From: Actinomycetota bacterium
GTDB taxonomy: Bacteria > Actinomycetota > Aquicultoria > Aquicultorales > Aquicultoraceae
Direction: 5' to 3'
Assembly: GCA_030018005.1 (NCBI GenBank)
Contig: JASEGT010000001.1
Span: 1 to 64,000, forward strand
DNA length: 64,000 nt
Shown: one piece after another, positions 6,396-23,019 of the stretch
Numbering within the stretch: the stretch's first letter is position 1
How the letters are laid out: the number at the start of each line of letters is the position of its first letter
The notes under the pieces: model-generated
The model's database searches: none
Seen by the model: the letters and a program-made list of their open reading frames with translations, nothing else
What the model was told of the DNA's origin: nothing
Made by a program: the position numbers and the translations under genes

Positions 6396-7625
6396 ATGAA
6401 AAAGCCGGAGATATTGTCGCCGGCGGGAAATATGGAGAGATTAGAGTATGCGCTGGCCTATGGGGCCGATGCGGTCTATATCGGCGGCCGTGATTATAGT
6501 TTGCGGGCCAAAGCCGGCAATTTCACCGTAGAGGACATCAGGAAAGCCGCGGATACCGTACATGCCGTCGGCCGGAAGCTCTATGTCACCATGAATATAT
6601 TCGCAAGAAACCGCGATTTCAAAGATATGGCGGCGTACGTTCGCGAACTCGCCGAAGCACGGGTCGACGCCGTCATCGTCGCCGACCCGGGAGTCATGGC
6701 GGTAATCAGACAAGCAGCTCCCAAGCTGCGCATACACGTTAGCACCCAGGCGAATATCACAAATACGGAGGCCGCGCGATTCTGGGGCGGTACGGGAGCC
6801 GCGCGCGTCGTTCTCGCCCGCGAGCTCTCCGCGACGGAAATTGCCGAGATAGCCCGCGACAGCGGTGTCGAAACCGAGATATTCGTCCATGGAGCGATGT
6901 GTATCGCCTACTCGGGTCGGTGCCTGATGAGCAAGTTTTTAGCCGACCGGGACGGGAACAGGGGAGATTGCGCTCATTCATGTCGCTGGAAGTATCATCT
7001 GGTAGAGGAGAAGCGATCCGGCCGGCTCCACGAGGTCGAGCAGGATAACCGGGGAGTACATTTCTTCAACTCAAAAGATTTATCCCTGATTCGGCATATT
7101 CCTGAAATCGTTAAGACGGGTGTCGACAGCATCAAAATCGAGGGGCGCATGAAGAGCACCCATTATGTGGCTGTAATCACTAAAATCTACCGGCAGGCAA
7201 TCGACAGATACTGCGCAGACCCCGACGCGTACGAGGTCGACCCGGAATGGCTGGAGGAGATCGAAAAGGTCAGCCACCGCGAATATTCAACCGGTTTTTT
7301 CCTCGGCGGGCGAGGTGAGGAAGTCCTGGATTATGCCCGTTATGAGAAAACCCATGATTTTGTGGGCCTTGTAACCGGTTACGACGACGAGCGCGGCCTG
7401 GTCGAGGTCAAGGTTAGAAATCGCTTGTCTCGGGATGAGCCGGTCGATATATTAAGCGCTCGCTCATTAGTAAAAGACTATCGAATACCCGAGATGTTCG
7501 ATTTGAAAAAGCATGAGCCGGTCGCGGTTTCACATGCGGGCTTTCATGTAGGCGTACCGTCAAAGGGACCTTGGCCCGAGTTTGCGATTCTTAGACGCCG
7601 GGTGCAAGGTGCCCCGAAAGACTAA
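6396..7625 (+). CDS. U32 family protein, probable tRNA uridine hydroxylase (TrhP-like)
   Basis: 409 aa. The U32 signature is present as EIFVHGAMCIAYSGRCLMS, followed by GDCAHSCRW. Together they supply four cysteines that bind an Fe-S cluster in characterised members. The N-terminal PEILSPAGN and DAVYIGG segments and the IKIEGRMKS motif are also typical. The family was named as peptidases, but the best studied relatives (YegQ/TrhP, B. subtilis YrrN/YrrO) make 5-hydroxyuridine at tRNA position 34. This protein has the length and layout of that group. ATG 6396 has GAGG 8 nt upstream. The specific RNA substrate cannot be told from sequence; RlhA-type rRNA hydroxylases are longer. Confidence 0.85.
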   Translation: MKKPEILSPAGNMERLEYALAYGADAVYIGGRDYSLRAKAGNFTVEDIRKAADTVHAVGRKLYVTMNIFARNRDFKDMAAYVRELAEARVDAVIVADPGVMAVIRQAAPKLRIHVSTQANITNTEAARFWGGTGAARVVLARELSATEIAEIARDSGVETEIFVHGAMCIAYSGRCLMSKFLADRDGNRGDCAHSCRWKYHLVEEKRSGRLHEVEQDNRGVHFFNSKDLSLIRHIPEIVKTGVDSIKIEGRMKSTHYVAVITKIYRQAIDRYCADPDAYEVDPEWLEEIEKVSHREYSTGFFLGGRGEEVLDYARYEKTHDFVGLVTGYDDERGLVEVKVRNRLSRDEPVDILSARSLVKDYRIPEMFDLKKHEPVAVSHAGFHVGVPSKGPWPEFAILRRRVQGAPKD

Positions 7626-8515: not shown

Positions 8516-9424
8516 ATGAAAGAGATTACCGGTCAAACTAGAGTACTGGGGATAATTGGTTACCCCTTGACATATACGCTCTCCCCGAATATGCATAATG
8601 CCGCACTCAAAGACGTCGCATTAGACTACCGGTACCTGCCCTTCGTGGTCCCTCCCGAACGACTGGCGAACGCCATCGCGGGCATTCGCGCGCTCGGCAT
8701 CGCGGGCGTCAACGTGACCATGCCCCACAAAGAAACGGTAAGCGAGTTTCTCGATGAAATATCACCTGAGGCTCGCATGATCGGGGCGGTAAACACCGTA
8801 CACAACGTCGATGGCCATCTTAAGGGTTATAATACCGACGGCACCGGCTTTATTAAGTCGCTAAGAGAAGAGTTGGTCGACCCGGAGGGCCGGCACGCCA
8901 TAATCTTCGGGGCTGGTGGAGCCGCAAAAGCGGTCGCAGTTTCGCTGCTAAACGAAGGCGCGGCAAGCATCTCACTGGTGGGACGTTCAGCGGAGAAGGT
9001 CGCGGCACTCAAAGCACATCTACTGGGTAACTTTGGAGTATTTCCGATAAAAGCGCTTAGTTTTGACGATGATTTGGCCGATATCTTTGAAGTAGGAGAC
9101 CTAGTAGTCAATGCAACGCCAATAGGTATGAAAGATGGCGCAGACCTCCTACCGGTACCTTTAGAACATATAGATTCCAAACACTTTATCTATGACCTCA
9201 TCTATACACCGTCGGAAACGGCACTAATAAAAGCAGCCAAGGATAAGGGAGCCAAAGCGGTAAACGGACTAGGGATGCTACTCTACCAGGCCGCCATGGC
9301 GTTCGAAATCTGGACTGGTACCCCCGCGCCGATAGCGATTATGCGTGACGCTCTATTGATTGGATTAGAAGGCGGAGATCGGTCGAAGTATGCTCAAAAG
9401 AAAGATCAGCGATTTTCTGGTTGA
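8516..9424 (+). CDS. aroE: shikimate dehydrogenase
   Basis: NADP-dependent reduction of 3-dehydroshikimate to shikimate in the chorismate pathway. 302 aa. N-terminal substrate domain: GYPLTYTLSPNMHN (shikimate-binding serines) and NVTMPHKE with the catalytic lysine. GAVNTV and YNTDGTGF follow. Rossmann domain: IIFGAGGAAKAV glycine-rich loop, then NATPIGM and VNGLGMLLYQ. ATG 8516 follows an AAAGGTG ribosome site. The last 35 bp overlap the start of pilB, so aroE is translationally tied to the pilus locus while the other shikimate genes lie beyond it at 26-29 kb. Confidence 0.95.
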   Translation: MKEITGQTRVLGIIGYPLTYTLSPNMHNAALKDVALDYRYLPFVVPPERLANAIAGIRALGIAGVNVTMPHKETVSEFLDEISPEARMIGAVNTVHNVDGHLKGYNTDGTGFIKSLREELVDPEGRHAIIFGAGGAAKAVAVSLLNEGAASISLVGRSAEKVAALKAHLLGNFGVFPIKALSFDDDLADIFEVGDLVVNATPIGMKDGADLLPVPLEHIDSKHFIYDLIYTPSETALIKAAKDKGAKAVNGLGMLLYQAAMAFEIWTGTPAPIAIMRDALLIGLEGGDRSKYAQKKDQRFSG

Positions 9425-11057
9425 TACCGGCATCATCACGAAAGAACAACTTTGTGAAGCCATCGAACGCTCCAGCGGCGATGACGTAGAGCGACAGCTG
9501 GTCGATTTAGGCTATATATCCGAGGCTGAAATAGCCAAGAATTTTGCCAAGCAGTTGAACCTCGGCTACGTCGACCTGGCCAGTTATAATATCAACCCGC
9601 AGGCAGCAGCCCTTATTTCAAACGAACACATCCGCCGCTATAATGTCTTACCGATTAATCTCGAGGAGGATTACCTGGTAGTGGCGATGGCCGACCCGAC
9701 AAATATCTTCGCAATAGACGACCTTCATGTGATGACCGGCTTTGATATCACACCGGTTGTTACCGGCGAGACCGATCTTATCAATGCGATAAACAAGTTC
9801 TGTACGAATGATGACGTCGTTGAAGAGGCCATTGAGAGCATAAGCGAGGATTTTGCGGATATCGCCGCGAGAAGTGGCGAGGAGGTCGATGCCGAGGAAG
9901 CACCGGTCGTAAAACTCGTCAAGCTTATTGTCACTGAAGCCGTCCGCGAACGGGCGAGCGATATCTTCATAGAGCCACAGGAGTATGATCTGAGGGTGCG
10001 CTACCGTATCGACGGCGTCCTCCATGAGATAATGCATTCGCCGAAGCAAATTCAGGCCGGTATAATTTCGCGAATCAAAATAATGTCCGGCATGGATATC
10101 GCGGAGCGCCGACTTCCCCAGGATGGTCGCTTCGGTTTGGTCATCGATAAGAGGCCAATAGATTTTCGCGTGGCATCATTGCCGACCATATACGGGGAGC
10201 AGCTAATACTGCGAGTCCTTGAGAAAGAAAGCATATCAATGAACTTAGATGAACTGGGCTTTCTTCCTGAAGACCTCGAACGCTTCAAGGCGTCGTTTAC
10301 CAAACCTTACGGGGCGATTCTCATAACCGGCCCGACTGGGAGCGGCAAGACAACTACCCTCTATGGTGTCCTTAATCTTATCAACAGCGATGCGAGCAAC
10401 CTCATCACAGTCGAAGACCCGGTTGAGTACCGGCTGCATGGTATCAACCAAGTGCAGGTAAATGCAAAAACGGGTTTGACCTTCGCGAGCGCTCTCCGTT
10501 CGATTCTGCGCCAAGACCCGGATATCGTGATGATTGGAGAGATCAGGGATGAAGAGACGGCGACGATTGCGGTAGAATCGGCTCTCACAGGGCACCTGGT
10601 TCTATCGACGCTGCACACAAATAGTGCGCCTGCGGCGCTCACCAGGCTTGTCGAGATGGGGATAGAACCGTTCCTGGTTTCTTCCGCGGTCGACTGTGTT
10701 GTCGCGCAAAGGTTAGCCCGGAAGCTTTGTACAAAGTGCCGGGAGCAGTTTGCCCCGACTGAGCCAGAGCTCGTAGGGGCCGGCTTTGTTATAGACGGGA
10801 ACGAGCCGAAAGTCCTGTATCGCGCAAGAGGCTGCAAGACGTGTGGCGAGACAGGCTATCACGGCCGAATCGGACTCTACGAGGTTATGCGAATATCGGA
10901 GACGATAGAGCGTCTACTAGTCGGTGATGTCACTGCCGAACAGATAGAGAAAGTTGCCGTAACGGAAGGCATGGGGACCTTGCACCAGGATGGTCTGGCC
11001 AAGGCGAAATTGGGTTGGACTTCAATCGAAGAGGTCGAGCGCGTTACCATGAAATAG
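9390..11057 (+). CDS. pilB: type IV pilus assembly ATPase PilB (copy 1)
   Basis: Hexameric cytoplasmic motor that drives pilus extension. 555 aa. Residues about 1-150 form an MshEN/GspE_N-type domain, followed by the secretion ATPase core with Walker A GPTGSGKTTT, the Asp box LRQDPDIVMIGEIRD, the His box LVLSTLHTN and a tetracysteine zinc site (CTKC ... CKTC). MshEN domains can bind c-di-GMP in PilB relatives; whether the binding motif is intact here was not verified. ATG 9390 lies inside the 3' end of aroE. A second, shorter PilB follows 23 bp downstream. Confidence 0.95.
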   Translation: MLKRKISDFLVDTGIITKEQLCEAIERSSGDDVERQLVDLGYISEAEIAKNFAKQLNLGYVDLASYNINPQAAALISNEHIRRYNVLPINLEEDYLVVAMADPTNIFAIDDLHVMTGFDITPVVTGETDLINAINKFCTNDDVVEEAIESISEDFADIAARSGEEVDAEEAPVVKLVKLIVTEAVRERASDIFIEPQEYDLRVRYRIDGVLHEIMHSPKQIQAGIISRIKIMSGMDIAERRLPQDGRFGLVIDKRPIDFRVASLPTIYGEQLILRVLEKESISMNLDELGFLPEDLERFKASFTKPYGAILITGPTGSGKTTTLYGVLNLINSDASNLITVEDPVEYRLHGINQVQVNAKTGLTFASALRSILRQDPDIVMIGEIRDEETATIAVESALTGHLVLSTLHTNSAPAALTRLVEMGIEPFLVSSAVDCVVAQRLARKLCTKCREQFAPTEPELVGAGFVIDGNEPKVLYRARGCKTCGETGYHGRIGLYEVMRISETIERLLVGDVTAEQIEKVAVTEGMGTLHQDGLAKAKLGWTSIEEVERVTMK

Positions 11058-11080
11058 TCGATATCGGCGGAGGCCGTTTT

Positions 11081-12613
11081 ATGTTAGCTGAACGTGCTGA
11101 TGAGATGTTTCCAATTGAAGACAAGAATAGGATAGACCTAGCCGATTGCAAGGTCAATGGAGCGGCTGCTACGGCCTTGCCTGAGATGTTCGCGCGAAGG
11201 TATAATGTCGTGCCCATCGATATCGAAGGCGAAGAGCTTACTGTGGCGGTAGAGGATGCGACCAACGTCGTCATCCTCGACGACTTGCACATGATAACAG
11301 GCTATCAAATAAAAGCGGTCGTCGCAGAGAAAAAAGAGATTTTAACCCTTATCAATCGCCTATATAAAGCGAGCGATGCGGTTCAGAACGAGGCCTCCAG
11401 CGTCCACGAGGACGAAGTCGATGACCGCATAGGCAGCATGCGGGCGGTTTCAGAAGAAGCGCCTGTCATAAAGCTTGTCAACATGATAATAAATAAAGCG
11501 GTCAATGAGCGGGCGAGTGATATACACATCGAGCCGCACGAGCGAGATTTGCGCATTCGTTACCGGGTAGATGGCGTTTTGCACGAGGTAATGCGCTCGC
11601 CAAAGCATGTCCAGGCCGGGCTCATCTCAAGGGTCAAGATTATGGCAGGACTTAATATCGCCGAAAATCGCATTCCACAGGATGGCCATTGCGATTTGAG
11701 CGTCGGCGGTAAAGTCATCGACTTTCGTGTCGCTACGCTGCCCACGATCTATGGCGAGCGTGTTGTCTTGAGGATTCTTAGAAAAGACAGCATCCTTTTA
11801 AGCTTGGATGACCTTGGTTTCTTGCCGGAGAGCCTCGGCAAGTTCAAGGCAGCCTTCTCTAAACCATATGGAGCCATCCTTGTCACCGGGCCGACCGGAA
11901 GCGGCAAGTCTACCACGCTTTACGGGGCACTTAATGTCATCAACAATAGCGCAAAAAACATTATCACGGTCGAGGACCCCGTCGAATATCGCCTGCCCGG
12001 CATCAACCAGATACAGGTGAGCGGCAAGACCGGCATGACATTTTCAAAAGGTCTCAGGGCCATATTGCGGGCGTCTCCTGATATCGTGATGGTAGGCGAG
12101 ATCCGGGACAGAGAAACAGCACAAATCGCCATTGAGGCGGCGCTCACCGGTCACCTAGTACTCTCAACCTTGCACACAAATGATGCGCCCGGCGCCGTGA
12201 GCCGGTTGAACGAGATGGGAATCGCCCCGTTTCTCACAGCTTCGGCTATTCATTGTGTCCAAGCTCAACGCCTGGCAAGGCGCTTATGCTCCGAATGTAA
12301 AGAGGAATACACGGTAGCCATCGACGTTCTCAAAAGGGTTCAGTTCCCGCTCGATAGCGACGAGCCGCCAGCGCTTTATAGGCCGAAGGGCTGCCATAAG
12401 TGCAATAACACCGGTTACAGGGGTAGAGTCGGTGTCTATGAGGTCATGCTTCTTAGCGACACCATAAAGAGACTCTGCGTCGAGCGCGCAACGGCCGACG
12501 ATATAAGACGCGTTGCTGTCGACGAAGGGATGAAGACCCTGCGCCAAGATGGTTTCGACAAAGTAAAGCTCGGCACGACGTCTCTCGAAGAGATTCTCCG
12601 CGTAATCGTTTAG
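11081..12613 (+). CDS. second PilB-type ATPase, N-terminally shortened
   Basis: A 510-aa paralogue of the preceding PilB. The ATPase core keeps Walker A GPTGSGKSTT, the His box LVLSTLHTN and both CxxC zinc pairs. Two things differ. The N-terminal domain lacks roughly the first 55 residues of copy 1, and the usually conserved RQDPD of the Asp box reads RASPD. The frame is open from TTG 11015, inside copy 1, but ATG 11081 has CGGAGG 7 nt upstream and is chosen. It may form mixed or alternative motors with copy 1, or be a regulatory subunit with altered ATPase activity; neither can be decided here. Confidence 0.9.
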   Translation: MLAERADEMFPIEDKNRIDLADCKVNGAAATALPEMFARRYNVVPIDIEGEELTVAVEDATNVVILDDLHMITGYQIKAVVAEKKEILTLINRLYKASDAVQNEASSVHEDEVDDRIGSMRAVSEEAPVIKLVNMIINKAVNERASDIHIEPHERDLRIRYRVDGVLHEVMRSPKHVQAGLISRVKIMAGLNIAENRIPQDGHCDLSVGGKVIDFRVATLPTIYGERVVLRILRKDSILLSLDDLGFLPESLGKFKAAFSKPYGAILVTGPTGSGKSTTLYGALNVINNSAKNIITVEDPVEYRLPGINQIQVSGKTGMTFSKGLRAILRASPDIVMVGEIRDRETAQIAIEAALTGHLVLSTLHTNDAPGAVSRLNEMGIAPFLTASAIHCVQAQRLARRLCSECKEEYTVAIDVLKRVQFPLDSDEPPALYRPKGCHKCNNTGYRGRVGVYEVMLLSDTIKRLCVERATADDIRRVAVDEGMKTLRQDGFDKVKLGTTSLEEILRVIV

Positions 12614-12696
12614 CATGCGTTTCTAAGCTCAAGCATGCCGGACTCATCGCCGATATTCATTGAGAACCAGAAGACACTCGATTGGGAGGTTTAGCA

Positions 12697-13761
12697 TTGC
12701 TCGATATCAATGATCTCTTGATGAATGTATTGGAGAAGGATGCATCCGACTTACACATAACCGTCGGCACCTCGCCCATGGTGAGGGTTCACGGTGATTT
12801 GGTCGCACTCGATTATCCCGAGTTGACTGCGCAGGACACGAAAGAACTTATATATAGTATACTCACCCAAGACCAACGCGAGCAGCTAGAACGAAATTGG
12901 GAGTATGATTTATCTTATTCCCTGACCGGGCACGCGCGTTTCAGGGTCAACACCTACTTTCAGCGCAACAGCGTCGGTGCGGCGTTTCGTATCATCCCGA
13001 TGCAGATAAAGACCTTGGAAGAGCTTGGCCTGCCGCAGTCTCTGGAGAATTTGGTGCGCAAGCCGCGGGGGCTGGTTCTGGTCACCGGTCCGACTGGAAG
13101 CGGAAAATCCACGTCTTTAGCAGCTCTTTTGAATATCGTCAACGAAACCCGCTCGTTTCACATCATAACCATCGAAGACCCGATCGAGTATCTCCATAAA
13201 CACAAGAAATCAATTGTAAACCAGCGTGAAGTGGGTACCGACACTAAATCGTTTGCGACCGCGCTCAAATATGTCTTGCGTCAAGACCCCGACGTTATAT
13301 TGATCGGTGAGATGCGAGACATGGAGACGATATCGGCCGCATTGACCGCCGCTGAGACAGGACACCTTGTCTTTGCGACACTCCACACGCAAGACGCACC
13401 GCAAACCATCGACCGAATCATCGATGTCTTTCCGTCACACCAGCAGCAACAAATCAGGGTGCAGCTGGCCGGAACGCTCCAAGGCATTATGTGCCAGCAA
13501 CTATTACCGACACGTGACGGGCAAGCCAGGGTCGTAGCTTATGAGTGCCTAGTGCCGACACCTGCTGTGCGCAACATGATCAGAGAGGCGAAGACGCACC
13601 AGATATGCAACGCGATGCAGACAGGTCACCAGCACGGCATGATGACAATGGATTATTGTTTAGCCGACCTTTACAGGTGCGGCAAGATATCTTTCGAGAT
13701 GGCGATGATGAAAGCGGCCGACCCCGCAGAGCTGAAACAATTGCTCGGAAAAGCCGCGTAA
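12697..13761 (+). CDS. pilT: type IV pilus retraction ATPase
   Basis: Hexameric ATPase that depolymerises the pilus and powers twitching. 354 aa, the usual length. N-terminal PAS-like domain (about 1-100), Walker A GPTGSGKSTS, Asp box LRQDPDVILIGEMRD, His box LVFATLHT, and the PilT-specific C-terminal AVRNMIRE motif (AIRNLIRE in other species). It lacks the zinc cysteines of PilB. Start: the frame is open from TTG 12682, but GGGAGG at 12684-12689 points to TTG 12697, giving MLDINDLLMNVLEKDASDLH as in other PilT. Presence of PilT implies that the pili can retract. Confidence 0.95.
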   Translation: MLDINDLLMNVLEKDASDLHITVGTSPMVRVHGDLVALDYPELTAQDTKELIYSILTQDQREQLERNWEYDLSYSLTGHARFRVNTYFQRNSVGAAFRIIPMQIKTLEELGLPQSLENLVRKPRGLVLVTGPTGSGKSTSLAALLNIVNETRSFHIITIEDPIEYLHKHKKSIVNQREVGTDTKSFATALKYVLRQDPDVILIGEMRDMETISAALTAAETGHLVFATLHTQDAPQTIDRIIDVFPSHQQQQIRVQLAGTLQGIMCQQLLPTRDGQARVVAYECLVPTPAVRNMIREAKTHQICNAMQTGHQHGMMTMDYCLADLYRCGKISFEMAMMKAADPAELKQLLGKAA

Positions 13762-13777: not shown

Positions 13778-14989
13778 ATGGCGAACACTTTTGCATATAA
13801 GGTAAGAGACAGCAAGGGAAATCTCCTGAAGGGGCAGATCGAGGGCGATGGCGTAACCATGGTCGCGACTAAGTTGCGACAGATGGGCTACGTCGTAATT
13901 GAGCTCAAAGAGAAGAGCCTGGCTCAAAAGGAGATAAACCTGCCTTTTTCAGGTCGGGTGAAAGCGAAAGACCTTACCATTTTCAGTCGGCAGTTCGCGA
14001 CGATGATAAACGCCGGCTTATCTCTGACGAGATGCCTCAACATTCTAGCCGAGCAGACCGAGAGCAAGGCTTTAAAGAAGGTAATCGCAAGCGTGCTTGA
14101 GGATGTCGAGCGAGGCAAAGCGCTCTCGGATGCCATGGCGAAACACACCTCGACTTTTCCACCGATATTTATCAACCTGGTCCGCGCCGGTGAAACAGGC
14201 GGTGTACTCGACGAGGTGCTCTTAAGGGTCGCCGACCACTTTGAAAAAGAAGCTTCGATAAAGTCGAAGATTAAATCCGCGATGGCATACCCCAGTGCCA
14301 TGTTTACATTTTCCATGGTCATAACGTTCGTCTTGATAACTTTCATCGTCCCGCTTTTTGTCGCGATGTTCGAAAATATGGGCGGCAACTTACCTTTACC
14401 TACGAAAGTCCTGCTAACGCTGAGCAATTTCATTCGCGCAGCCTGGTTCATAATAATCCCGGTTGTGGTAGCCGCTATCTATTTATTGAGAGTTTATAGT
14501 AAGACCGAAAAGGGGAGGGCGAATATCGACAACCTAAAACTTCGCCTGCCGATTGCGGGTGTTTTAGTGCGCAAGATGTCGATTTCTCGCTTTACTAGAA
14601 CCTTCGGCACACTCCTTTCTAGCGGCGTGCCGATTCTCGTAGCTCTCGATATTGTTGCTGAAAGCTCCGGCAACGCGATTGTATCCGCCGCAGTCAAAAG
14701 GACGCGGGTGAGCATCAAAGAGGGTGAGACGATAGCCAAACCGCTCGCCGCGGACAAAGTTTTTCCGCCGATGGTCGTTCAGATGATCGCGATAGGTGAG
14801 GAGACCGGTGCGCTCGATGGCATGTTGTCAAAGATAGCCGATTTCTACGACGAAGAGGTGTCCAATATGGTCGATGCGCTCACCTCGATCATCGAGCCGT
14901 TGATGATTATCGTAATGGGCCTCATCATCGGTGGCATTATCGTCGCGCTCTATATGCCGATGTTCCAAATCATAACCCTTATCAAATAA
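13778..14989 (+). CDS. pilC: type IV pilus inner-membrane platform protein
   Basis: Polytopic platform that couples PilB/PilT to pilin entry and exit. 403 aa with two T2SSF domains (about 70-190 and 270-395) and three main membrane segments (near 168-192, 215-240 and 370-395). Typical motifs are FSRQFATMINAGLSLTRCL and, in the second repeat, FTRTFGTLLSSGVPILVAL. ATG 13778 follows a GAAGGA ribosome site and lies 16 bp after pilT. It ends the motor block; a 281-bp regulatory region separates it from pilA. Confidence 0.95.
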   Translation: MANTFAYKVRDSKGNLLKGQIEGDGVTMVATKLRQMGYVVIELKEKSLAQKEINLPFSGRVKAKDLTIFSRQFATMINAGLSLTRCLNILAEQTESKALKKVIASVLEDVERGKALSDAMAKHTSTFPPIFINLVRAGETGGVLDEVLLRVADHFEKEASIKSKIKSAMAYPSAMFTFSMVITFVLITFIVPLFVAMFENMGGNLPLPTKVLLTLSNFIRAAWFIIIPVVVAAIYLLRVYSKTEKGRANIDNLKLRLPIAGVLVRKMSISRFTRTFGTLLSSGVPILVALDIVAESSGNAIVSAAVKRTRVSIKEGETIAKPLAADKVFPPMVVQMIAIGEETGALDGMLSKIADFYDEEVSNMVDALTSIIEPLMIIVMGLIIGGIIVALYMPMFQIITLIK

Positions 14990-15080
14990 AGATGCTGTCA
15001 TAAGCTGGTAGAATATTTCAATTCAAGCTAAAGTAAGCTGATTTCAGACCGATAAATAACTTATAAAACGGTCTTTTACA

Positions 15081-15155
15081 ACGAAAAAGGCAAACCCGTC
15101 GTGAGTCGGGGACGCAAAGCCACGGGGCTCTCAAGAGTCGGCCGGGTTGCCGTAC
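15081..15155 (+). promoter_or_regulatory. cyclic di-GMP-I (GEMM-I) riboswitch upstream of pilA
   Basis: The conserved core is readable: GGCAAACC at 15089-15096, a short P2 hairpin, the near-invariant GGGACGCAAAGCCACGGG at 15108-15125, a second hairpin (GGCTC TCAA GAGTC), and the closing GCCGGGTTGCC at 15141-15151. This order and wording match the GEMM-I aptamer for c-di-GMP. It lies on the same strand as pilA, about 115 bp before its start codon, with a terminator-like hairpin between. It therefore probably sets major pilin expression by c-di-GMP. Whether ligand turns expression on or off cannot be read by eye. Confidence 0.92.
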
Positions 15156-15180
15156 AAATCGAACTTTAATCATCAGGTAC

Positions 15181-15221
15181 AGGCGGTGGCGCAATTATGC
15201 ACACGCTGTGCCTTTTTCTTT
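15181..15221 (+). terminator. imperfect hairpin plus T tract, likely riboswitch expression platform
   Basis: AGGCG near 15181 can pair with TGCCT at 15208-15212 (one wobble), with an interrupted inner stem, followed by the T-rich stretch CCTTTTTCTTT at 15211-15221. It lies 26 bp after the c-di-GMP aptamer and 50 bp before pilA, the normal place for a regulated terminator. The stem is imperfect, so this is a moderate call. Confidence 0.5.
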
Positions 15222-15270
15222 GCTCAAAAAGATCGCCGCTTTTAAATCTCATAATAGGGAGGTGAATTGA

Positions 15271-15642
15271 ATGAATATGTTCCGCAACGAGAGGGGTTTT
15301 ACCCTCATAGAGTTGATGGTCGTAATCCTTATTATCGGTATCCTAGTAGCTATCGCCGTCCCGGTGTTTAATGCCGCAAGGGAGAGCGCTTACAAATCTA
15401 CTTGCCAGGCGAACTTAAGGACCATTGACGGTGCTGTCGAGACCTACAAGGCAAGTACCGGCAATGACTATCCGACCGCTGCGAATATAGAAGCGACGTT
15501 AGAGCCCGCATACATTAAGCAATGGCCGGCATGCCCATCAGCGGGTGCGTACGTTATAGGAGCTGGCGGTGGTGCAGGTTCTACTGTAGCCCCAGTAGTC
15601 TCATGTCCTGGTGCACCTGGAAATGGTCACACCTATCCGTAA
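15271..15642 (+). CDS. pilA: major type IV pilin PilA
   Basis: Structural subunit of the pilus. 123 aa with a short type III leader, cleavage after Gly9 (NERG^FTLIELMVVILIIGIL), Glu at +5, and the long hydrophobic N-terminal helix. The globular part is small and contains three cysteines and a Gly/Pro-rich C terminus. AGGGAGGT lies 9 nt before ATG 15271. Its own strong terminator follows directly. With the c-di-GMP riboswitch upstream, this gene is regulated separately from the assembly machinery, as expected for the most abundant subunit. Confidence 0.95.
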   Translation: MNMFRNERGFTLIELMVVILIIGILVAIAVPVFNAARESAYKSTCQANLRTIDGAVETYKASTGNDYPTAANIEATLEPAYIKQWPACPSAGAYVIGAGGGAGSTVAPVVSCPGAPGNGHTYP

Positions 15643-15671
15643 AAATCCTGTTAAGCTTTGAGCTAGCAGGT

Positions 15672-15702
15672 GGGGCGGCGCAAGCCGCCCCTTATTTTTT
15701 TT
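15672..15702 (+). terminator. strong intrinsic terminator after pilA
   Basis: GGGGCGGC (15672-15679), a GCAA tetraloop, and GCCGCCCC (15684-15691) form a perfect 8-bp GC stem, followed by TTATTTTTTTT. It isolates pilA from the genes downstream or lowers read-through into them. Confidence 0.95.
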
Positions 15703-15748
15703 GCATTCCCGCCGATAATAAAGAGAACATTTGTTATAGGAGACGGCC

Positions 15749-17767
15749 TTGATAAGCAGCTTAGATGTTGAAGAGAAGAAGCCAAAATCGCCGCTATCGC
15801 CGGAGGTTCTGGATAGAGCAATCGTGTTTCTCTTATATGGGATCGTTGTTCTCGTACCGCTTGCGCTGTTCCCCTGGACCCTAGACCAGGCGCTTGCAAT
15901 AAAATACCTCATCTTCAAAGTGGGCACGCTCTTGGCGGTCGCGCTCTTGGCGTGTCGTGTTGTTCTATACGGAGTTAAGCTAAGGATTTCCGGGCTAGAG
16001 TGGCCGCTCGGACTATTTATTTTGTTCATCCTTATATCCACAGGGTCTTCCGTTCACGGACCAACCAGTCTGGAGGGGGCGTTCCAGCGATATGACGGGC
16101 TTTATAGCTATCTCATATATTTCGCCCTGTTTTTCCTCGCGGCCCAGTATCTGGCGGATGACGAACGGCGCGAAACTTTTCTTAAGCTCTTTGTTCTTTC
16201 GGCATCCATCGTGTCGTCATACGGAATACTCCAACTGTTCGGCATCGACCCGACGCCTTGGGGTTATATCGCGTTCGACACATCAAGAAGCTTCTCGACG
16301 TTTGGAAATCCGGTGTTGCTAGGCGCATACCTTAGCATAACGTTCTTTATTGCTCTCGGTTTGTTCTACAACAGCAAGCAATCCATTGAAAAGATAGCAT
16401 ACTCGGTCGCAACCACGCTATTAGCAGTGTGTGTTGTCCTGACGATGGGTCGCGCATTATGGGCGGCGGTGCTGGCTGGATTATTGATATTCACGGTCTT
16501 GCGCGTTAAGGCTTTAACGAAGTCGCGGGTCACATGGCGGGTAGCAGTCGGACCGGTTCTCCTGGCTCTGGCGGCCGTGGTGCCGGCGACTCTTATTGTC
16601 GGCATACCGGTGCTCTCTTCTCGGGTGGCGTCGATGGCTGAAACGAGTGGTAGTCTGGGCAACCGGTTGTCGATGTGGCGGAGCGCGCTTGCCATGATAT
16701 CCGACCGACCGTTTCTCGGCTATGGCCCGGATTCCATTGGGTTGGTTTTTCCCCGCTATGAAGCAGCGGAACTTGCCCGAATTGCGCCAATCGACATTCA
16801 AACCAACGTTCACAATGCCTTTCTGCAGATTGCTGCGACCACGGGTGTTCCAGCTCTTCTGTCATTCTTGCTGATACTTACAATATTTGTGTTTAAGTCG
16901 CTCAGAAAAATACGGTCAGAGGGGAATGCCTCGCCCATACTGGTCGGCCTATTCGCGGGCACGGTCGCATTTGTCATCCAGAGCGCTACCGGAATTACGG
17001 GCATTGCGACCTCGACCTATCTATGGCTTGGCATGGGTGCACTTTCGGCTTCGTGGTCGGAGGAGCGGCTCACTATTAAGCCTCCACCTGTATTTATGCG
17101 ATATATTGCCGTGGCTGTTATAGTATGTTCCCTGCTGGTAGGGCTAAACAGCGCGGTTAAGCCGTTCTTGAGCGATATCGCGCTCGGGCAGGCACGACTA
17201 GCTGAGCGAGCAGGTCGTTTTGAAGAGGCAAAGGTATTATACAAATCGGCAATATCGCACAACCGCGATGATGTGAAAGCCTATCGTGAGCTGGGTATAG
17301 CATTGGCGGATGCAGGTCATCTATCAAAAGATCATGCTACTTGGTCTAAGGGAATCGCATTACTAGTCGAAGCGTCACGTCTGTCACCTAGCGACCAGGA
17401 AACCCAGATGTTTTTAGGCCAAGCGTATCTCTATGGAGCACGGGCATTCGATGCTCGGCATTATTATATAGCCGAGCGTTATTTGAAGAAGGCGGTCAGC
17501 ATGCGACCTTTTTCGTATGCGGCCAATACGATGCTGGCCGTAGCCTATATCGAAATCGGAAGAAAAGACCGGGCTAGAGATAGCTTAGGAATCGCCTTAA
17601 GCATCAACCCGAACGACCCTCAAGCCCACTATTATCTTGGACGATATCATGAAGAGGCCGGCAGCACTGAGAGCGCAATGCTCGAATACCGCGCCGCGCT
17701 GGCGCTTGACGGCAAGTACGAGAGGGCAAAAATCGCGTACGAAAGGTTGGCCAGGAATGAGAGATAA
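15749..17767 (+). CDS. O-antigen ligase-like membrane protein with C-terminal TPR repeats
   Basis: 672 aa. The first 480 residues hold about ten to twelve membrane segments and the Wzy_C/WaaL signature region (GNRLSMWRSALAMISDRPFLGYGPDS, then NVHNAFLQIAATTGV in the following loop with its conserved His). Residues about 495-665 are TPR repeats. Proteins of this superfamily transfer lipid-linked glycans; PglL/PilO/TfpW members glycosylate type IV pilins. Its place directly after pilA and before pilD makes a pilin O-glycosyltransferase a reasonable guess, but a polysaccharide polymerase or ligase is equally compatible with the sequence. TTG 15749 has TAGGAGA 6 nt upstream. Confidence 0.8.
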   Translation: MISSLDVEEKKPKSPLSPEVLDRAIVFLLYGIVVLVPLALFPWTLDQALAIKYLIFKVGTLLAVALLACRVVLYGVKLRISGLEWPLGLFILFILISTGSSVHGPTSLEGAFQRYDGLYSYLIYFALFFLAAQYLADDERRETFLKLFVLSASIVSSYGILQLFGIDPTPWGYIAFDTSRSFSTFGNPVLLGAYLSITFFIALGLFYNSKQSIEKIAYSVATTLLAVCVVLTMGRALWAAVLAGLLIFTVLRVKALTKSRVTWRVAVGPVLLALAAVVPATLIVGIPVLSSRVASMAETSGSLGNRLSMWRSALAMISDRPFLGYGPDSIGLVFPRYEAAELARIAPIDIQTNVHNAFLQIAATTGVPALLSFLLILTIFVFKSLRKIRSEGNASPILVGLFAGTVAFVIQSATGITGIATSTYLWLGMGALSASWSEERLTIKPPPVFMRYIAVAVIVCSLLVGLNSAVKPFLSDIALGQARLAERAGRFEEAKVLYKSAISHNRDDVKAYRELGIALADAGHLSKDHATWSKGIALLVEASRLSPSDQETQMFLGQAYLYGARAFDARHYYIAERYLKKAVSMRPFSYAANTMLAVAYIEIGRKDRARDSLGIALSINPNDPQAHYYLGRYHEEAGSTESAMLEYRAALALDGKYERAKIAYERLARNER

Positions 17768-22807: not shown

Positions 22808-23019
22808 CACCGGCTCCCCATAATCCTGCCATCCAGCCTTAGCTCTACCAAACCACCTGATAAGAGCCAATAAATAGCTTTCCAACCCCTAAAGTATTAT
22901 GGTCACTAACCGATGCAATAACAGATAGATGCATTGGGCTTATAGCCTACGTCTATTCGCCCCGCACCAGCTGTTGAATAGAATATGCAAGTGACGAGCT
23001 TTAGACGCAGGAGGATATT

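Follow-up and report, generated by a model that had tools for sequence, protein, structure and literature searches.

The pilin gene pilA of Candidatus Aquicultor, a deep-branching actinobacterium, lies behind a putative c-di-GMP riboswitch, and this raises the question of whether c-di-GMP controls the major pilin separately from the pilus motors and at how many steps. We analysed a stretch of 64 kb (hereafter, the window; coordinates refer to its forward strand), whose PilC was 95-96% identical to Ca. Aquicultor proteins, in agreement with the actinobacterial setting given in a preliminary description of the locus. The gene order is aroE, pilB copy 1 (pilB1, 9390-11057), pilB copy 2 (pilB2, 11015-12613), pilT (12682-13761, Pfam T2SSE, named by order and length), pilC (13778-14989, the last ORF of the upstream motor/platform operon), a leader, pilA, a Wzy-type ligase/TPR protein, a prepilin peptidase, minor pilin-like proteins and pilM-pilO, pilM being named by Pfam. 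The pilA gene (15271-15642) encodes a major type IV pilin of 123 aa with the Pfam N_methyl (N-methylation) motif, is preceded by the ribosome-binding site GGGAGGTG (15257-15264) and keeps its position after pilC in relatives. A promoter lies between pilC and the riboswitch aptamer, and a strong terminator (15672-15701), made of the hairpin 15672-15691 (GGGGCGGC-GCAA-GCCGCCCC) and a T run, follows the gene; pilA is therefore a one-gene unit, and both this terminator and the separation from the motor genes had been rightly anticipated. It is highly improbable that the leader RNA serves mainly to soak up c-di-GMP, the sponge role put forward for Bdellovibrio merRNA. In the Bdellovibrio attack phase, sigma28-type promoters are prominent, as is c-di-GMP riboswitch RNA (PMC3627812), but here the leader is followed, in all Aquicultor genomes and in most family relatives that have the aptamer, by a pilin gene that has a ribosome-binding site of its own.

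Infernal searches identified a c-di-GMP-I (GEMM-I) aptamer at 15080-15155, which matched RF01051 over its full length (model positions 1-87) with 68.1 bits against a gathering cut-off of 35. The top Rfam model was RF03167 (c-di-GMP-I-GGC), with 70.1 bits and an E value of 1.4e-14 (gathering cut-off 59). The preliminary description had proposed a GEMM-I aptamer with a downstream hairpin and T tract at 15081-15221; both elements were recovered, and the span of switch plus hairpin was corrected at its start to 15080-15221. The RF01051 search returned this single copy, at the pilA leader, in the 2.19 Mb draft genome, and no aptamer in 14 control genomes. By alignment, the pocket was canonical, with G15089, A15116 and C15150 at the positions of G20, A47 and C92, of which A47 stacks between the two guanines (numbering and residue roles from PMC9049102). 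Within the phylum, 155 of 397 sampled genomes contained c-di-GMP-I aptamers. Of the aptamers that could be read, A47 was present in all 96 and G20 in 93 of 98.

These residues bear on whether the aptamer might sense cGAMP instead of c-di-GMP, or else the ligand of the GGC variant. The rank of RF03167 as top family speaks for such a ligand, as does an A at position 20 in a few relatives, a change that shifts specificity toward cGAMP (GEMM-Ib). The window, by contrast, carries G15089 at that position, and the cmscan alignment departs from the RF03167 consensus exactly at the A47-equivalent column, where A15116 stands in place of a G that we take, from the family name, to define c-di-GMP-I-GGC. 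The GGC-variant ligand was rejected on these grounds, and sensing of either alternative is very unlikely. Because the three pocket residues are canonical, and the readable aptamers of the phylum all keep A47 and mostly keep G20, the aptamer is expected to bind c-di-GMP. Despite its highest-scoring model, it is an ordinary member of the c-di-GMP-I family. It resembles the RF01051 class in sequence, structure and pocket, and has a terminator-type platform as in the class I OFF switches of C. difficile; its differences from the usual RF01051 element are the actinobacterial host, the position before pilA alone and the WhiG-type promoter upstream. The relatives with an A at the position-20 equivalent include L028 (1501-1581, the same as L076 2865-2945), whose aptamer also precedes a pilin gene, and L053, L224 and L226.

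The expression platform contains an intrinsic terminator with a stem at 15175-15213 (about -16 to -17 kcal/mol) followed by TTTTTCTTT, the T tract being at 15213-15221. In relatives, the pairing of the stem is kept by compensatory change (GGUAC/GUGCC to GGCGC/GCGCC). Two helices competing with the terminator were predicted from pair probabilities. In helix A, the aptamer 3′ strand 15149-15155 (GCCGUAC), which includes C15150, pairs with the terminator 5′ arm at 15177-15180 (GUAC) and 15182-15184 (GGC), leaving A15181 bulged; its probability was 0.74-0.93 for transcript ends 15184-15209 with no ligand constraint. In helix B, the aptamer 5′ strand 15083-15092 (GAAAAAGGCA) pairs with the terminator 3′ arm 15209-15218 (UGCCUUUUUC) at 0.81-0.91; it adds to helix A, and because it forms only after the T tract has been transcribed it is unlikely to be the main antiterminator. 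Since helix A uses a ligand-contacting base, ligand binding and antitermination are mutually exclusive, as in an OFF switch. When the aptamer bases were held, the terminator formed with a probability of 0.90, compared to 0.07 with the aptamer free at the 3′ end 15230. At 3′ ends 15212-15215 the ligand-free equilibrium model also formed the terminator at 0.90, so read-through would need kinetic persistence of helix A.

The same exclusion of ligand binding and antitermination was predicted in five relatives (L010, L011, L018, L115 and L119), while in folding of four others (L030, L012, L022 and L056) the terminator stayed formed with or without a free aptamer, so that the predicted direction is not uniform. 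Helix A was only partly kept outside the genus; one of its pairs is lost in Aquicultor sp. C1, where one pair of helix B is broken too. In an aptamer swap, the own aptamer brought the terminator probability to 0.08 and the 16 swapped aptamers to a minimum of 0.09. This backs the modelled platform pairing weakly, because the interaction energies of the own aptamer were no better than those of the swapped ones.

An ON switch was weighed against this folding model. Combined with repression through RsiG-WhiG (see below), it would let pilA be expressed only at intermediate c-di-GMP, as in a band-pass. There are precedents, since the class II switch of C. difficile pilA1 turns the gene on with c-di-GMP, and B. 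thuringiensis has ON switches of class I (PMC6366702). The free model, too, forms the terminator early, at 15212-15215. However, the aptamer and the terminator have no bases in common and lie about 19 nt apart, so that ligand binding cannot itself break the terminator, and the pairing that does compete with it uses the aptamer strands. Overall, the folding models make OFF the likely direction of the pilA riboswitch, and ON an unlikely one. The arrangement thus recalls C. difficile Cdi-2-4, in which a c-di-GMP riboswitch and terminator also precede the major pilin gene pilA1 (PMC6366702), but Cdi-2-4 is class II and ON, whereas the Aquicultor switch is class I and predicted to be OFF.

A second level of c-di-GMP action had been sought in PilB copy 1, to which the preliminary description assigned an MshEN-type domain. 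Pfam found MshEN there but also in copy 2, a domain shared with the c-di-GMP-responsive MshE/MshEN pilus ATPases, in which the ligand is bound by two 24-residue motifs of the form RLGxx...LxxxLxxQ (PMC5013675). Neither PilB matched the strict or the relaxed version of this motif: PilB1 carries KIS/DVE in place of the required RLG, and the N-terminal part with this region is missing from PilB2. Motor-level control is not supported by the sequence, because the motifs are degenerate in PilB1 and absent from PilB2, and we rejected PilB as the best candidate for a second level. The two pilB genes are in tandem (9390-12613), and copy 2, which lacks the N-terminal MshEN motif region, overlaps the end of copy 1. 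More likely, the second level is at transcription initiation, through RsiG and WhiG.

The evidence for this began with a promoter absent from the preliminary description, spotted when the sequences upstream of related aptamers were compared side by side and a CGATAA block was seen to recur. It consists of a -35 box TAAAGTAA (15029-15036) and a -10 box ACCGATAA (15048-15055), 24 nt upstream of the aptamer. Compared to the flagellar/WhiG consensus TAAA...GCCGATAA (PMC8325347), it is a near-perfect sigma28/WhiG-type site, with TAAA in the -35 box, GCCGATAA in the -10 box and flagellar-type spacing (TAAAGTAA-N11-ACCGATAA). Its score of 30.5 was the highest of its type on either strand of the window, where the next was 27.5, and no site in five shuffled windows scored at least 30. 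Among Aquicultor genomes both boxes were kept while the spacer diverged. Transcription is predicted to start at about 15062, which would make the aptamer the 5′-most element of the RNA. No sigma70-like promoter was found in a consensus scan of 14900-15800. Two further sites were observed in the window. A weaker WhiG-like site before pilM (22890-22916, TAAAGTAT-N11-ACCGATGC) belonged to the second-best tier with 27.5, which suggests that part of the pilus cluster is under the same control. At 15692-15718, a perfect GCCGATAA with a poor -35 box overlaps the T run that follows pilA; it lies ahead of the Wzy_C/TPR gene at 15749 and is kept in related genomes (GCCGATAT in G002).

The genome encodes the proteins that such control would require. 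WhiG was the sole match over the cut-off of TIGR02479 (FliA/WhiG-family sigma factors), with 282 bits; its best PDB match was S. venezuelae WhiG (1.5e-89, compared to 1.8e-47 for FliA), and whiG adjoins a gene that, from its sequence, is presumably rpsB. RsiG is a 100-residue protein on contig 11 whose motif EERVSFRRRVLHGKID fits E(X)3S(X)2R(X)3[QH](X)3D with H (E-x3-S-x2-R-x3-H-x3-D), and which matched the RsiG structures of S. venezuelae (6pfj_T, 2.1e-8) and R. radiotolerans (7lq3_B, 6.5e-8). Six DNA-pattern matches to this motif were found in all, one being RsiG and the others unconvincing. RsiG homologs were present in 33 of the 36 genomes of the class, and the motif was kept in all 20 sequences inspected. 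We infer that this RsiG is a single-motif, c-di-GMP-armed anti-sigma factor of WhiG, and that WhiG probably reads the promoter at 15029-15055. The genome carries 14 GGDEF domains, so c-di-GMP can be made. Two adjacent tandem RsiG-like stretches were seen at each of three loci (G016 C1:93136-93636, G018 C45:19818-20228 and G027 C143:5852-6385), in open frames of 176-185 aa, one of the stretches in G027 reading a stop, which suggests a twin-motif RsiG in a few members of an otherwise single-motif class.

This set of parts has a counterpart in Rubrobacter, where c-di-GMP-bound RsiG holds WhiG and reportedly controls type IV pili (PMC8325347). Common to both are the WhiG ortholog and the single-motif RsiG, and in both there are flagellar-type promoters within the type IV pilus cluster as well as upstream of a gene for a diguanylate cyclase. 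The Aquicultor transcript differs in also having a c-di-GMP riboswitch, an element that the Rubrobacter report does not mention. In the Aquicultor genome, genes with other intergenic WhiG-type sites upstream encode a diguanylate cyclase, a chemoreceptor, HAMP proteins, TPR proteins and a CAP-domain protein. Flagellin-like genes lie at G000 C33:21853-24240 (L297 and L298), and no strong WhiG site was found in the 1.5 kb upstream of the flagellin gene, so the WhiG regulon is assigned by motif only. A single WhiG-type sigma factor may serve both flagella and pili.

We also determined how often the two elements occur together. In a first set drawn from the class and the phylum, 35 of 44 c-di-GMP-I loci had an upstream WhiG-type site scoring above the 95th percentile of shuffled upstream sequence, a null that is easier to exceed where sequence is GC-rich. 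In a further set, with the scoring fixed beforehand, sites at p<=0.01 were found at 38 of 63 c-di-GMP-I loci and at none of 26 cobalamin riboswitches of the same class (rank test, 8e-5); the held-out positives fell in 13 of 16 families, the set including related genomes that are not independent within families. The absence of positives among the cobalamin riboswitches disfavours a general effect of leaders, and the pairing of promoter and switch recurs across deep Actinobacteria. Four pilA genes without the aptamer (L062, L066, L067 and L069) still had a WhiG-type promoter, and the promoter at pilA therefore seems to predate the switch or to be more widespread. In Ca. Aquicultor secundus (L061, about 7280-7420), the pilA leader has a WhiG-type promoter and no aptamer core, while the aptamer ends, with the complementary GAAAAAGG and CCTTTTTC, and a T-rich 3′ side remain; this leader looks like an aptamer relic.

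The association also bears on whether there is one c-di-GMP level at pilA, with a working riboswitch behind a promoter that is read by another sigma factor or by a WhiG outside c-di-GMP control. WhiG dependence and RsiG function are deduced here from sequence, and the flagellin gene is without a strong upstream WhiG site, as this reading would allow. It is nevertheless improbable, because the motif is near consensus and enriched before c-di-GMP-I aptamers but not before cobalamin switches, the scanned region offers no sigma70-like alternative, and WhiG and a motif-complete RsiG are both encoded.

Altogether, we lean towards a model in which pilA is transcribed on its own and must pass two successive c-di-GMP checkpoints, both OFF; the model takes ligand binding, the sigma factor at the promoter and the switch direction as deduced above. 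At initiation, by analogy with known RsiG-WhiG systems, c-di-GMP-bound RsiG is expected to hold WhiG inactive, and high c-di-GMP would stop transcription from the WhiG promoter. During elongation without ligand, the aptamer 3′ strand would pair with the terminator 5′ arm and polymerase would read through to pilA; with c-di-GMP, that strand would be locked in the aptamer, the terminator would form and transcription would stop. With both gates acting in the same direction, so that c-di-GMP means pilin off, repression would be coherent and steep. Each of the parts is known, but their setting is unusual: in a genome with RsiG, a WhiG-type promoter leads into a c-di-GMP riboswitch ahead of a pilin gene, and promoter and switch are paired in this way across deep Actinobacteria. 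In the papers that could be searched, among which most subscription journals are missing, we found no transcript described as being under both a c-di-GMP-controlled sigma factor and a c-di-GMP riboswitch. We give even chances to the wider proposal that deep-branching Actinobacteria built c-di-GMP-I riboswitches into the WhiG regulon, the same transcripts being gated twice, at initiation by RsiG-WhiG and at elongation by the riboswitch, with the Aquicultor pilA as an example.

The two-checkpoint model would show that a second messenger can check the same gene twice, first at initiation and then at elongation of its transcript, and would connect RsiG-WhiG, which acts on spores in Streptomyces and on pili in Rubrobacter, with riboswitches. 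It would also give a context for the c-di-GMP-I aptamers of the phylum and makes a direct prediction on how pili are controlled in lineages not yet in culture. If the wider proposal is true, the recurrence of the pairing would mean that the shape of the response, steep or other, has been selected in a circuit found throughout the phylum.
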